Shown here: positions 6,284-24,483 of the stretch, in pieces | Numbering within the stretch: the stretch's first letter is position 1 | How the letters are laid out: every line of letters starts with the position of its first letter | Translations under genes and position numbers: made by a program | Notes under the pieces: model-generated | What the model saw: the letters and a program-made list of their open reading frames with translations, nothing else | The model's database searches: none | What the model was told of the DNA's origin: nothing | From: a virus | IMG/VR virus record: IMGVR_UViG_3300010368_003491 | Span: 1 to 24,483 of that record | Reading direction: 5' to 3' (one strand) | Length of the DNA stretch: 24,483 nt

Positions 6284-6313
6284 AAGAGGGGCATTTATTG
6301 CCCCTCTTTTTTT
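6284..6313 (+). terminator. Rho-independent terminator of gene 23
   Basis: A 9-bp GC-rich stem, AAGAGGGGC (6284-6292) with GCCCCTCTT (6300-6308), has a 7-nt loop and a T run to 6313. It ends the rightward head-gene transcript about 30 bp after the gene 23 stop. The stop codon of the convergent endonuclease gene lies in its loop. Confidence 0.9.
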
Positions 6314-7680
6314 GTCCATGTGTATATCGCAGAACCACAATCCCATATTCTGTCCCATCCATTTTCCAACATATTTTCATACTCTGTTTTTGCTTCATCA
6401 AAATATTCAAGTTTGGTTTTTAATTTGTGTTTTTGGAAAGCAACTCTTGAAAACAACGTTCTTGGATTTCTTTTGTTAAAATACCAATAATTTGGTGGTG
6501 TTAATCCAGAAAACGAAAATCCACAATGCTCATAAACTTTACCATCACCGAAACGCAAGTCTGCATATGTTATAATACTATTTGGATTTTCTATTTTTAT
6601 GAAATTGCTGAACAATTTAGATGCGCCGCCAACAACAGTAAAATCAGAATGTGATGACATTCTTGCACACTCATATTCATATTTTTTGTTATATCTTGAC
6701 TTTCCAAACGAACATGCCATAACAAGTTCTCCTTGATTGAAAAGACCATAATGATATCTTGCAGGTATAAACCCATGCATGTGATGCTCATTATGAAATT
6801 TTCTAGATTCTTCAACTGTTATACGTTTTACTTCTGTTTTTCTGGCATACACTCTTTTGTTTTTTCCATGGATGGTATTTAAAAGTTTTTTTACTTTTTC
6901 AGTATCATCACTCTCAAAAATAGTTATTAGTTTGACACCAACTTCTTCACACATTATGAATTTTTTTTGATGGTAATTACTTTTCTTTTTGCCGAAGTTT
7001 TCAGAATGCCAAACATTACCACAATACTCTATCGCAAGACTATTTTTTTTGTTGTAAATGTCCAATTCGAATGGTGTTATTATTTCTTTGGTATTATGTA
7101 TCCAATCATATTCGCCATACGTTCTTTCGCAATACTCAAACAATTCTATCTCTGCTTTGCTTCTCCAAGGTACTTCTACTTGCATATCATATTTCTTGAA
7201 CAATTTTTTAAGGTATGAGTAAGAAACCCCCAAATCATCTGCTAGTATTGTTAGAGGTTTTTTTCTGTCATATTTTTTCTCTAAAAATTCTTTGTCAAAC
7301 TGCATGTGTTCAAATTGTTTATTCTTACCGTCTCTACATGCTTCTGATAAATCCTTCAATTCTATATCGTAATTTTCTAACCATTCGTAAATTGTTTTTT
7401 GACTCACTGAATAATATTTTTCTAACGCTTTTATGGAATTTCCAGAATACATTTCTGCAAGTTCTAGTTTATTTGGCATAGACATGAATTTATGCCTATT
7501 ATTTGCCTCACTAGATGCTTGCTGTTGTGATTTCTTTTTTATGCCATAAAAATCCAACCATTTTCTAACGGTTGGATTCGATGTTTTGTAATGCCTAGAT
7601 AAAGATGAAATAGTCCCACCTTCCTTAAAATAAAGTGCTTCTATTTCATCTTTTTTTGGTATAGGTTTTTGGTGACTCAA
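6295..7680 (-). CDS. Free-standing homing endonuclease (Vsr-like, HTH repeats, C-terminal GNAT-like domain)
   Basis: A 461-residue mosaic. Three helix-turn-helix-like repeats lie near residues 20-45, 80-105 and 140-165 (each ends in W/L-x-x-Y-x-I/M). Residues about 173-275 look like a Vsr/EDxHD (PD-(D/E)XK-like) nuclease, with candidate catalytic Glu177, Asp207 in FELDIY, Glu218 in AIEYCG, His225 and His237. The rest (ITVEESRKFHNEHHMHG to the C-terminus) resembles a domain that recurs in phage endonucleases and has a GNAT-like look. The start is TTG at 7680, directly after an in-frame TAA, with AAGG about 10 nt upstream; the next in-frame Met is residue 66. It follows the 7696 gene by 15 bp. 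A site next to gene 23 is typical of mobile endonuclease genes. Family assignment is by motif only. Confidence 0.75.
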   Translation of the reverse strand: MSHQKPIPKKDEIEALYFKEGGTISSLSRHYKTSNPTVRKWLDFYGIKKKSQQQASSEANNRHKFMSMPNKLELAEMYSGNSIKALEKYYSVSQKTIYEWLENYDIELKDLSEACRDGKNKQFEHMQFDKEFLEKKYDRKKPLTILADDLGVSYSYLKKLFKKYDMQVEVPWRSKAEIELFEYCERTYGEYDWIHNTKEIITPFELDIYNKKNSLAIEYCGNVWHSENFGKKKSNYHQKKFIMCEEVGVKLITIFESDDTEKVKKLLNTIHGKNKRVYARKTEVKRITVEESRKFHNEHHMHGFIPARYHYGLFNQGELVMACSFGKSRYNKKYEYECARMSSHSDFTVVGGASKLFSNFIKIENPNSIITYADLRFGDGKVYEHCGFSFSGLTPPNYWYFNKRNPRTLFSRVAFQKHKLKTKLEYFDEAKTEYENMLENGWDRIWDCGSAIYTWTKKEGQ

Positions 7681-21448: not shown

Positions 21449-22022
21449 GTAAGTCCTTTACATTACCGTTATTTTGTATACGATATATTCTTATTGAAAA
21501 GTTGTCTGGAAGTATGTGTGATTTTATTATAGGAGTTTCTTTTTTGATTATATATTCATTAACAAGAGTTCCATTTAAATATCTTCTTGAATCGGAAGAA
21601 AAATCACACCCTTCTCTTGTCAATTGAACCAAGGATATATCATTGGTCCCAACTTTATTTATAATCGGTTCAAGTTCCTCTTTAAAACCACCATCACTGA
21701 AACAATAGTCTTTACCTTTTTCTATTTTGTTCGACACTTCTTTGCCAAAAAAATCTTTTCCATATTTTGGTTTGATGATACATTCAGAAACATATATCAT
21801 CGCTTCCCTTCTACTAAATCCTTGCAAATACGAAGAAGATGCTTCTTTTTTTGATCTATCGTCATAACCTGACATAAACCAATCTATACCGACACCAAAA
21901 TATTTGCATGTTTCTTGTAACAACAATTTTTTAAAACTTAGGTGTCCAAACCCTTTTTTTTCTAGGAACAGACAACATTCATCTTTGCCTGTTCCTGGTG
22001 GTCCATTAAATATAACTATCAT
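21390..22022 (-). CDS. Deoxynucleoside monophosphate kinase-like P-loop protein
   Basis: About 210 residues from the ATG at 22022; longer in-frame starts lie deep in the upstream gene. The Walker A loop is GPPGTGKD at residues 7-14. Downstream, FSRREAMIYVSECIIKPKYG followed by KDFFG and CFSDGGFKEEL match the phage dNMP kinase pattern (T4 gp1-like), where a Ser-Asp-Gly-Gly motif sits in the acceptor region. It would phosphorylate dNMPs for phage DNA synthesis. The ribosome-binding site is weak (AGAAGAA), so coupling to the upstream gene, which it overlaps by 17 bases, is likely. Confidence 0.8.
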   Translation of the reverse strand: MIVIFNGPPGTGKDECCLFLEKKGFGHLSFKKLLLQETCKYFGVGIDWFMSGYDDRSKKEASSSYLQGFSRREAMIYVSECIIKPKYGKDFFGKEVSNKIEKGKDYCFSDGGFKEELEPIINKVGTNDISLVQLTREGCDFSSDSRRYLNGTLVNEYIIKKETPIIKSHILPDNFSIRIYRIQNNGNVKDLHGTIEKICRQEKENTGKQA

Positions 22023-22224
22023 ATATTTCTTCTGCGAATACCGCTCTCCATTCTTCTTGTGTAATTCCAGAAAGTATGAATTCACGATCTGAATTGTTCA
22101 AATAAGGCATTGCATCATCAATAGAAGCATCACCATTTTCCCACAAAATCAAATCCTCTGGATTTACAGGAATATTAACAACACGTTCAACACCAGTAAT
22201 CACACTTTTACGTTTAATTTCCAT
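22006..22224 (-). CDS. Conserved hypothetical small acidic protein
   Basis: About 72 residues from the ATG at 22224, which has AAGGA nine nt upstream; the in-frame ATG at 22233 abuts that site and is unlikely. The N-terminus MEIKRKSVITGVERVVNIP is followed by an acidic middle and REFILSGITQEEWRAVFAEE, a pattern common in short phage proteins of unknown role. It is the first gene after the TTGACA promoter near 22290 and overlaps the kinase start. Confidence 0.75.
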   Translation of the reverse strand: MEIKRKSVITGVERVVNIPVNPEDLILWENGDASIDDAMPYLNNSDREFILSGITQEEWRAVFAEEIYDSYI

Positions 22225-22264
22225 GCAAGACATCCTTTATGATATATTTTCTATTAAGACTTTG

Positions 22265-22293
22265 ATACTACTCTATATTTTCACGTTTGTCAA
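22265..22293 (-). promoter_or_regulatory. Sigma70-like early promoter
   Basis: -35 TTGACA (22293-22288), a 17-nt spacer and -10 TAGTAT (22270-22265) on the - strand. It lies about 40 bp before the start at 22224 and overlaps the 3' end of the orphan coding fragment. Confidence 0.7.
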
Positions 22294-22416
22294 GCATTTT
22301 TCGTGTCCCATCTTACATATGTAATAAGCATCTACTATATCTGAAAGTGGGTTCCATTGCTTGGTGCTAGTTATATTGAGTTCTTCCCTAATGTTCAATC
22401 CCTTTTTTTCTAAATG
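22273..22416 (-). pseudogene. Orphan 3' coding fragment (RuvC-like DxxDA motif)
   Basis: An open stretch of 47 codons with no convincing start, preceded by an in-frame TAG at 22417-22419 and ending at TAG 22273-22275. It reads as a protein C-terminus: GLNIREELNITSTKQWNPLS, then DIVDAYYICKMG. The DIVDA element resembles the last catalytic Asp motif of RuvC-type resolvases. It lies directly behind the GIY-YIG endonuclease gene, overlapping its end in another frame, so it may be the remains of a gene disrupted when the endonuclease inserted. The RuvC idea is a weak inference. Confidence 0.4.
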
Positions 22417-23299
22417 CTATTATTTTAATATTATATTTTGAATGTAATCTTTCGTTATCCAAGTTTTTTTTTGACCATGCTTTAAGAGCATTGTAATTTA
22501 TATTGTTGAGAGAACACCACACAGATGGTGATTCGATAGTTGTGAGACCGTCTTTAGTTAAAATATCTGCTTCCCAATTATCAGGAGAATTGGGATTTTT
22601 TGTGGCGAAATTACCAGTTTCTTTTAAAGATTGTGAAATTTTTTTTCTATGCGCTTCTGTTTTGTTGTTTTTGCAGTATTTGGGTTGTATATTCTTTTCT
22701 TTTAAAGATTGAGAAATTTTTTTTCTTTCTTCTTCCGATCTTTTTTTCGTGTTTCCTTTTGTGGAACCTAACACTCCTTTATTCCAAGTATTCCCACCTT
22801 TTTTTGATCTGGAAATGTTTTCTTTGTGTTCTCTTGTAAAAGAAATGCCAATTCTACTTTCACTTAGTTTTCTTCTATGTTCTGGTGAAAATTCTTTTTT
22901 AGGAGCGAAGTATCTCGACATTATATTATTGTTGTAATAGAGTCTTTCACCATTTTCATTCTTTTCTTCTAAAACATTCAATTCAAATTGGACTTTAGTT
23001 TCCCAATAATTAGTGTCGCCTCTCGTAAAATGTAAAGACAAAATTTCTCTCGAAAAGTTTTTGTATCCTATATTAGTAACGTCTTCTGTTAATGTTTTGC
23101 TTGATCCATAATATTTTTTCCAGTCGCTTTGTATTCTTTTTTTTCCCCTTTTTGCCGTGAAATACTTCCTGCCAATATACATTTTTCCCGATAAAAGATT
23201 TGTTATTAAGTATACAAAACCATAATATTTTTCAATGTTCTCTTCTGTAAAAACCTCTCCTTCAAAATACCACGGATTTTCTATATATTCGTGCCTCAT
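22388..23299 (-). CDS. GIY-YIG homing endonuclease with NUMOD3 motifs
   Basis: A 303-residue endonuclease. The opening YIENPWYFEGEVFTEENIEKYYGFVYL leads into the GIY-YIG core: GFVYLITN and MYIGRKYF, followed by the catalytic-region pattern DWKKYYGSS and YWETKVQF with its conserved Glu. The C-terminal half has repeated NUMOD3-type DNA-binding motifs (SPEHRRKLSESRIG, REHKENISRSKKG, EEERKKISQSLKEK, EAHRKKISQSLKETG) and a terminal HTH-like region. Free-standing genes of this kind are mobile in T4-like phages. It has its own TATAAATA promoter and a hairpin covering its ribosome-binding site and start codon. The ATG follows AGAGGT. Confidence 0.88.
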   Translation of the reverse strand: MRHEYIENPWYFEGEVFTEENIEKYYGFVYLITNLLSGKMYIGRKYFTAKRGKKRIQSDWKKYYGSSKTLTEDVTNIGYKNFSREILSLHFTRGDTNYWETKVQFELNVLEEKNENGERLYYNNNIMSRYFAPKKEFSPEHRRKLSESRIGISFTREHKENISRSKKGGNTWNKGVLGSTKGNTKKRSEEERKKISQSLKEKNIQPKYCKNNKTEAHRKKISQSLKETGNFATKNPNSPDNWEADILTKDGLTTIESPSVWCSLNNINYNALKAWSKKNLDNERLHSKYNIKIIAFRKKGIEH

Positions 23300-23326
23300 A
23301 AATACCTCTTTTTTTAAGGTATTTAT
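23298..23326 (-). promoter_or_regulatory. RBS-sequestering hairpin of the GIY-YIG gene
   Basis: A perfect 10-bp inverted repeat, 23317-23326 with 23298-23307, and a 9-nt A-rich loop. In the - strand RNA the 3' arm contains the AGGT of the ribosome-binding site and the AT of the start codon, so a readthrough transcript would hide both. Confidence 0.75.
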
Positions 23327-23327
23327 A
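23320..23327 (-). promoter_or_regulatory. T4-type late promoter TATAAATA inside the hairpin arm
   Basis: Exact TATAAATA on the - strand overlapping the 5' arm of the hairpin. By T4 spacing the start site is near 23314, in the loop, so late transcripts lack the 5' arm and leave the ribosome-binding site free. Confidence 0.8.
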
Positions 23328-23353
23328 AAAGTTGCAAACTAGTAAAGGATAAA

Positions 23354-23599
23354 TTAATTTCGTTTCAAATATTGATCAGGTGCCCGACCAGTAGCAATAT
23401 CCATAAAATATTCAACTTTATTAAGATCGCCTAGTCTGCTTTCCAAATAATCACACATATCAAAAACAGAATTCACATCAACTTTTTGATGAAACATGTC
23501 AGATAACAAAGCGTCTGACATTGTTGTTTTTTCATCAATCATTATACGTATGATGTTTTTCTCAAAAGAGTTTATATCTTCAAAATTGTCCTTGACCAT
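23354..23599 (-). CDS. Conserved hypothetical small acidic protein
   Basis: About 81 residues from the ATG at 23599; longer in-frame readings overlap the glutaredoxin gene in another frame and are not likely used. It is acidic and helical: MVKDNFEDINSFEKNIIRIM at the start, SDALLSDMFHQKVDVNSVFD in the middle and the ending KVEYFMDIATGRAPDQYL, a pattern I recall from other T4-like phages. Function unknown. It overlaps the glutaredoxin stop by 20 bases and has a weak GAGTG ribosome-binding site, suggesting translational coupling. Confidence 0.7.
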   Translation of the reverse strand: MVKDNFEDINSFEKNIIRIMIDEKTTMSDALLSDMFHQKVDVNSVFDMCDYLESRLGDLNKVEYFMDIATGRAPDQYLKRN

Positions 23600-23831
23600 A
23601 ATCACTCTTTGTATTTTCAATTTCTGATGTAAATTCTTTGTATCCTCCAATATAACGACCATGCCACCAAATTTGAGGAATGCTTTTGGCATCTGGTTTT
23701 GCGAGTTTTAATTCTGCCAAAACAAGAGGTTCTTCCGCATTTTTATACTCATATTTTAGTTGATATGTTTCTGCTATTCTTTTTGCTTTCTCGCACCAAG
23801 GGCAATTTGATTTGCCATAAATTATAATCAT
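23580..23831 (-). CDS. Glutaredoxin
   Basis: An 83-residue thioredoxin-fold reductant. The redox-active CPWC lies at residues 10-13 after the strand MIIIYGKSN, the cis-proline is Pro52 in KSIPQIW and the glutathione-binding GG is at 62-63 in YIGGYKEF. It likely keeps ribonucleotide reductase or other enzymes reduced during phage DNA synthesis, as T4 thioredoxin (nrdC) does. No reductase gene is in this window. AAGGAAAT precedes the ATG, which overlaps the upstream stop (ATGA). Confidence 0.93.
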   Translation of the reverse strand: MIIIYGKSNCPWCEKAKRIAETYQLKYEYKNAEEPLVLAELKLAKPDAKSIPQIWWHGRYIGGYKEFTSEIENTKSDYGQGQF

Positions 23832-24046
23832 TTAATTTCCTTTCTTACACACCAATAAATCCAACTTTCCATGCAGTGATTTTTGTTAAAGAACAACAAG
23901 TTGTCTATCACCCAAACCAAATTTGGTTTACCATCTCTTTTCCATCCATAGTTTCTTGCTGAAAATGTCTGATTGCTGTTGCCACCTAGTATAACATTAA
24001 GCAAAACAGACAAAGCAATTCCAACTCTTATTAGATATTGCTTCAT
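23828..24046 (-). CDS. Small membrane-anchored or exported protein
   Basis: A 72-residue protein with an N-terminal hydrophobic helix (YLIRVGIALSVLLNVILGG) that could be a signal anchor, then SNQTFSARNYGWKRDGKPNL and the end segment NHCMESWIYWCV. This combination (NQTFSARN plus HC..SW..W) is shared by small proteins in many T4-like phages, as I recall, with no assigned function. AGGAGA lies upstream of the ATG, and a TATAAATA promoter is about 35 bp upstream, so it heads a late unit with glutaredoxin. Confidence 0.75.
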   Translation of the reverse strand: MKQYLIRVGIALSVLLNVILGGNSNQTFSARNYGWKRDGKPNLVWVIDNLLFFNKNHCMESWIYWCVRKEIK

Positions 24047-24080
24047 TGTTTTTTTCTCCTAACACGTTAACATGCAACGT

Positions 24081-24088
24081 TATTTATA
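24081..24088 (-). promoter_or_regulatory. T4-type late promoter TATAAATA
   Basis: Exact TATAAATA on the - strand in the 37-bp gap between the edge gene and the small membrane protein gene. It overlaps the last codons of the edge gene. Confidence 0.75.
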
Positions 24089-24482
24089 GAGAAACCATGA
24101 AGCAATTATTCTTCCACAGGTTAAATTCTTCTACAAGACTATTATGTGTGTCAAAAGAACAATAAAAAAACCATTCTCGAATTTTACTGTCATATGTATA
24201 ACCTATAACAGTGACAGGAAATTCATCATCTTTGCGTTTAATTCTTTCTACGCTAAATGCATTCATTTTTCTGAAGTCAAAAGAAAAATTTGCATCATAT
24301 ATTTGATTTTGAATTGAATCTGATATTTCGCCTTTAACTATTTTAAGTTCTTCTTTCTTGTCCTTAATTTGCCTATCATATGACGAAATAGTTGCAGTCA
24401 TATTTTCAATATCGCGTTCAAGATTTTTCTTTTCTTTTTGAATTTCAATGAGTTCTTCTTTAAACTTTTTTGTCAAAAACAT
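24084..24482 (-). CDS. Coiled-coil hypothetical protein at window edge
   Basis: 132 residues from an ATG one base from the window end. The true start could lie further upstream, so it may be partial. The first 60 residues form a charged coiled coil (FKEELIEIQKEKKNLERDIE, then YDRQIKDKKEELKIVKGEIS); the rest is a compact globular part with NAFSVERIKRKDDEFPVTVI and REWFFYCSFDTHNSLVEEF. I recall a similar protein in T4-like phages without function. No ribosome-binding site can be judged at the edge. Confidence 0.7.
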   Translation of the reverse strand: MFLTKKFKEELIEIQKEKKNLERDIENMTATISSYDRQIKDKKEELKIVKGEISDSIQNQIYDANFSFDFRKMNAFSVERIKRKDDEFPVTVIGYTYDSKIREWFFYCSFDTHNSLVEEFNLWKNNCFMVSL

Positions 24483-24483
24483 T

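Follow-up and report, generated by a model that had tools for sequence, protein, structure and literature searches.

The Locus and Its Endonuclease Gene

The window, by which we mean the whole 24,483-base virus record analyzed here, is a fragment of a T4-like phage, with portal, head protease, scaffold, and major head genes on its + strand and nucleotide-metabolism genes on its − strand. A free-standing GIY-YIG homing-endonuclease-like gene of 303 amino acids lies at 22388–23299 on the − strand, as recognized from its open reading frame, Pfam matches, and model fold match. Its product combines a SegE-type GIY-YIG catalytic domain at residues 10–126 (22922–23272, − strand; Pfam SegE_GIY-YIG, PF19835, 1.4e-39) with a separate DNA-binding region, a NUMOD3 motif at residues 155–176 (22772–22837, − strand) that scores above the Pfam gathering value. 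In the alignment with relatives, W10, G27, Y30, Y41, G43, and E100 are conserved, E100 and the Y/G residues of the GIY-YIG domain being invariant among the aligned relatives. The predicted model of the protein, the rows for which were the window sequence and loci fetched by search, has a mean pLDDT of 74, and its top structural matches are to the I-TevI catalytic domain (probability 0.90–0.97, with weak E values of 0.035–0.07). A search of solved structures by sequence with the 303-residue protein gave no credible match, and neither did megablast of the region match any of the named phages. By its sequence, the product is a SegE-type GIY-YIG homing endonuclease with a putative DNA-cleaving activity, for which cleavage and homing are predicted.

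Displacement of a Resident Resolvase Gene

The endonuclease gene occupies a defined slot in a conserved block, the order of which is phrog_3342, glutaredoxin, p23354, X, p22006, kinase. Here, X is a RuvC-like Holliday junction resolvase gene in L417, L153, L419, L420, and others, and the endonuclease gene in the window; as L417, L153, L419, and L420 have no such endonuclease at the site, this is a presence/absence difference between relatives. The upstream neighbor p23354 (112 aa, 23354–23692, − strand) precedes the resolvase gene in relatives, and the downstream neighbor p22006 (75 aa, phrog_20898, 22006–22233, − strand) follows it. Between the two, a remnant of the resolvase gene persists at 22291–22413 (− strand), corresponding to residues 142–182 of 185 in L417 (tblastn, 78% identity, E 3e-17), and over 22269–22412 the nucleotide identity is 77%. 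The remnant, roughly the 41 last codons, lies in another frame and overlaps the last codons of the endonuclease gene, with a 1-nt deletion near its end. Because this remnant sits in the resolvase slot, the 5′ part of the resolvase gene is absent from the window, and a second contig (L002) has the same endonuclease/remnant junction, we conclude from the computed comparison that in the window phage most of a RuvC-like resolvase gene has been displaced by the endonuclease gene, a feature that the sequence-only reading had overlooked.

Rfam gives no group I intron match over 22001–24483, which bears out the proposal of the earlier, sequence-only reading that the gene is free-standing. An intron-encoded endonuclease (I-TevI proper) was rejected on the same Rfam result, together with the absence of the resolvase 5′ part from the window.

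Leader, Late Promoter, and Proposed Switch

The minus-strand leader, running from 23327 to 23297, is TATAAATACCTTAAAAAAAGAGGTATTTATG. An exact T4-type late promoter, TATAAATA, is found by sequence match at 23320–23327 (− strand) and begins 28 nt upstream of the endonuclease ATG at 23297–23299. This promoter is overlapped by the distal (5′) arm of a hairpin at 23317–23326, upstream of the predicted late start, while the proximal (3′) arm at 23298–23307 covers the AGGT of the Shine–Dalgarno sequence (GAGG, 23305–23308) and the A and U of the AUG, all on the − strand. The arms are complementary at 10 of 10 positions across a 9-nt gap, and the helix grows to 13 contiguous pairs when wobble is allowed; the runner-up among the late promoter/ATG pairs of the window reaches 6 pairs, and across T4 none exceeds the 11 of gene e. 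Both elements that had been read from the letters, a perfect 10-bp repeat over AGGT and part of the ATG and an exact late promoter in its distal arm, are thus present, at exactly the positions first given for them. The promoter sequence occurs nine times in the window, compared to 2.7 ± 1.6 times in shuffled sequences (none of 100 shuffles reaches nine), and since it is over-represented in this way and several copies stand before head genes, it constitutes a used promoter class in the window.

We propose that in a read-through RNA, UAUAAAUACCUU would pair with GAGGUAUUUAUG, such that the Shine–Dalgarno sequence and the AUG would be closed to ribosomes. Late RNA polymerase would instead start at about 23314 (− strand), a position predicted from T4 spacing that falls within the loop, and the distal arm would be missing from the resulting late RNA, the leader of which would be 15 nt long. 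The endonuclease would then be translated solely from its own late transcript. This scheme presupposes that an early or middle transcript reaches the gene from upstream. Farther upstream on the − strand, the one late promoter seen is at 24081–24088, and the analysis turned up no early or middle promoter. We infer the start site, the read-through RNA, the timing, and the translation from the sequence, and “late-only” translation is likewise a prediction.

Predicted Opening Energies

The computed cost of opening the start site is 13.1 kcal mol–1 on the long RNA and 0.3 kcal mol–1 on the RNA starting at 23314, a predicted difference of 12.8 kcal mol–1, and folding gives an unpaired probability for the AUG of 0.01 on the long RNA and about 0.8 on the late RNA. 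The same calculation performed on positive controls from T4 yielded 9.9 kcal mol–1 for I-TevI, 10.7 for segB, 11.3/13.9 for e, and 9.2 for 49. In comparison, the other late genes of the window range from −1.2 to 1.7 kcal mol–1, and the T4 late promoters have a median of 2.8 kcal mol–1. Sizeable differences do occur in some control leaders, the control set having a median of 3.8 and a maximum of 12.9 kcal mol–1. We note, however, that T4 soc gives a weak difference of 3.1 kcal mol–1 although it is a switch described in the literature, and thus the opening energy is an imperfect detector. With this in mind, the expectation that folding both transcripts would show a hidden and an exposed start is supported by a predicted difference within the 9–14 kcal mol–1 of the T4 cases.

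Relatives of the Endonuclease and Its Leader

Three protein-based scans returned only two full-length relatives, L020 and L002, the latter being a second copy of the window sequence. The L020 endonuclease (287 aa, 42% identical) lies at another locus, directly 3′ of an intact RuvC-like gene, and in its leader, TATAAATACTTAATAGGAGGTATTTATG, the ten pairs are all retained, one of them changed from C-G to U-G. The leaders of related GIY-YIG genes had been expected to reveal compensatory changes; the pairing is indeed kept in L020, but as this is the one full-length relative found, the direct compensatory evidence for the window gene amounts to that single wobble change. The window leader is almost letter-identical to that of T4 I-TevI, AATAAATACTTCTATATTTAAAGAGGTATTTATG, and when used as a DNA query against 50,697 phage records its best match was an endonuclease leader (85% over 39 nt, E 0.007) located in a split thymidylate synthase gene, which is the I-TevI position.

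Taking the sequence logic, the T4-benchmarked folding, the conservation in L020, and the near letter-identity to the I-TevI leader into account, the original suggestion that a free-standing gene carries a switch like that of I-TevI is well founded. The free-standing SegE/I-TevI-type GIY-YIG endonuclease gene, which displaced approximately the first 141 codons of a RuvC-like resolvase gene, is very probably governed by a late translation switch of the T4 type.

Versions of the switch are found in some SegE-like lineages (the L045 group, L128, L139, and L229), and among the short (140-aa) cyanophage SegE-like genes, 6 kcal mol–1 is reached by 9 of the 63 late-promoter leaders. The switch as a general property of SegE-like genes was rejected, as most of the short cyanophage homologues (phrog_447) are without it. 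Separately, the short SegE-like genes L003, L005, L007, and L016 have strong stems of varying sequence immediately 5′ of the start codon, with no obvious Shine–Dalgarno sequence. Members of phrog_447 (for example, P-SSM2 176711–177148) carry “NAD synthetase” labels in cyanophages, yet by sequence are close SegE-type GIY-YIG relatives, a phrog_447 protein being 55% identical to the window endonuclease, and this annotation looks wrong.

Genes behind the Switch Motif

A strict form of the motif, TATAAATACYT-N3-15-AGGTATTTATG, was scanned in IMG/VR and found in 14 stretches, every one at the start of an open reading frame, with 7 of the 11 distinct downstream genes being homing-endonuclease-like. 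These comprise GIY-YIG (L101, L102, L107), HNH (L106, L108, L112), and EDxHD/HNH-type (L100) genes. We also compared a wider motif with a control in which the pairing was broken, obtaining at least 41 and at least 34 distinct downstream reading frames, respectively, each of at least 60 aa, and called endonuclease types from PHROG/Pfam profiles and inspection. Among the matches listed, about 22 of 41 reading frames behind the wider motif are of endonuclease type, compared to 0 of 34 in the control (Fisher, 5e-8); the former include, among those listed, one I-TevI homologue, three short SegE-like genes, and two called on phrog_5104 alone. The control reading frames that can be named among the matches listed encode head–tail adaptors, baseplate proteins, terminases, endolysins, and similar, and the listed control matches also include two RuvC-like genes with a hairpin of their own.

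As a separate observation, a family of proteins of about 190 aa has the same late switch (L103:1692–2267, L104:2–535, and L177:6004–6615), and its L103 member had no PHROG match in the profile scan.

The Switch on Resolvase Leaders

Resolvase loci were chosen by protein similarity (80 loci, L418–L497), giving 36 distinct leaders, each of the 36 with NATAAATA or NCTAAATA no more than 60 nt from the start. The opening difference reaches 6 kcal mol–1 in 25 of these 36 leaders (median 9.3). In an alignment of 35 resolvase leaders and two endonuclease leaders, 86% of cells are paired, compared to at most 61% in slid controls. This alignment contains 27 double-change cells, compared to 7.3 in shuffles (0 of 500 as many), and exchanging arms between leaders reduced the mean helix score in every one of 300 trials, with the caveat that relatedness inflates both of these tests. 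The pairing varies in sequence among the resolvase leaders (CCTCT/AGAGG, TCTCC/GGAGA, GTACC/GGTAC), and it is in these leaders only, not for the endonuclease gene, that strong covariation is found. RuvC-like resolvase genes of T4-like phages thus appear usually to have a covarying, start-hiding hairpin at a late promoter. We found no description of this switch on RuvC-like phage resolvases in the literature searched, which is not proof of absence.

Alternative Explanations and Origin of the Leader

Perfect repeats of at least 10 bp are not rare in the window, and the inverted repeat by itself is therefore weak evidence. In addition, TATAAATA is complementary to a TATTTAT(G) start context, and the promoter letters predispose to pairing with ATTTATG start contexts. 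One could accordingly suppose that the overlap of promoter and repeat is coincidental, or that the stem serves attenuation, RNA processing, or mRNA stability. This seems unlikely, however: when promoter, Shine–Dalgarno sequence, and ATG are kept in place, shuffling the letters produces a stem of 10 or more pairs with a frequency of 2.5e-5, and filling the positions at random does so with a frequency of 7e-5, which puts the probability of a chance origin at about 1e-4 or less, and, among the matches listed, endonuclease genes are over-represented behind the paired motif, whereas the unpaired control stands before late structural genes. A terminator was rejected, the stem being absent from the terminator-scan list; unlike a terminator, it has no U-run behind it, and it holds the Shine–Dalgarno sequence and AUG inside an arm. 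Similarly improbable is a dead or unexpressed insertion, with a switch of no present function. The adjoining resolvase is indeed a broken remnant, but the endonuclease reading frame is intact and encodes every domain residue that is conserved in relatives, and the second contig (L002), 99.8% identical, keeps the reading frame over the covered residues 23–303.

The preferred reading, a late translation switch on the endonuclease gene, is compatible with more than one origin of the leader. The endonuclease coding region may have replaced that of the resolvase from the start codon onward, inheriting the resident leader, in which case the mechanism would be the same. This has a substantial chance of being correct, though somewhat below even: the gene fills precisely the resolvase position between p23354 and p22006, where the 3′ end of the resolvase gene still remains, the resolvase leaders all have a late promoter and mostly a start hairpin, and some are very close in sequence, such as that of L153/L431, AATAAATACCTCTATAGAAAATGTAGAGGTATTTATG. 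Against this, the L020 endonuclease has its own switch 3′ of an intact resolvase gene, the window and L020 have ACTAGT in common at a nearly equal distance upstream of the promoter, and many unrelated endonucleases carry the switch. The similarity of the window leader to endonuclease and to resolvase leaders is not decisive for its origin. More broadly, we tentatively suggest that the late switch of about 30 nt (NATAAATAC..T / AGGTATTTATG) may be a standard module of DNA-cutting enzymes in T4-like phages, either repeatedly evolved or transferable and common to RuvC-like resolvases and homing endonucleases of several nuclease families, and that the window endonuclease displaced the resolvase at that switch. 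The displacement could possibly have occurred via recombination between two nearly identical switches, or by takeover of the resident one.

Comparison to Known Systems

The logic of a late promoter within a hairpin that hides the ribosome-binding site has been described for I-TevI, I-TevII, I-TevIII, e, soc, 49, segB, and Aeh1 mobE (PMC2988022, PMC3014915). Like the window gene, the T4 I-TevI gene of the td intron has a late promoter, in its case NATAAATA, within the distal arm. Its proximal arm is the same AGAGGTATTTATG, and the folding difference is similar (9.9 kcal mol–1 for I-TevI and 12.8 kcal mol–1 for the window gene). The I-TevI gene, however, lies in a group I intron, whereas that of the window stands free and has taken the place of a resolvase gene, and the two proteins have a common GIY-YIG fold but belong to different families, that of the window being SegE-type. 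The sequence-only reading had seen the novelty in the gene being free-standing; it is free-standing, but the switch has already been described for the free-standing endonuclease genes segB of T4 and mobE of Aeromonas phage Aeh1 (PMC2988022). As in the window, the late promoter of these genes overlaps the hairpin that hides the ribosome-binding site, but they belong to other endonuclease families or subfamilies, and their insertion sites differ, segB lying between tRNA genes and mobE within nrdA.

The leaders of T4 gene 49 (endonuclease VII; PMC3014915) and gene e follow the same logic with similar sequence, although these genes are not mobile elements. Gene 49 encodes a Holliday junction resolvase, as did the gene displaced in the window, but one unrelated to RuvC. 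T4 SegE has the Pfam SegE_GIY-YIG domain of the window protein, but the segE leader, which does have a late promoter, has a weak predicted switch (2.7 kcal mol–1), and segE adjoins uvsW, unlike the window gene.

A known kind of switch in a new setting is, on the sequence, well supported, and with it a control circuit known from T4 would reach uncultivated phages as well. It suggests a rule by which a single late RNA switch conceals the DNA-cutting enzymes of phages, mobile and resident alike, and, as the selfish gene and the gene that it broke bear the same kind of switch, capture and co-transfer can be tested against each other.

Elsewhere in the window, a second homing-endonuclease-like gene (6295–7680, − strand; phrog_3339/559) is without the late switch. 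It lies antisense directly after the major head gene, placed and oriented as segD is in T4.
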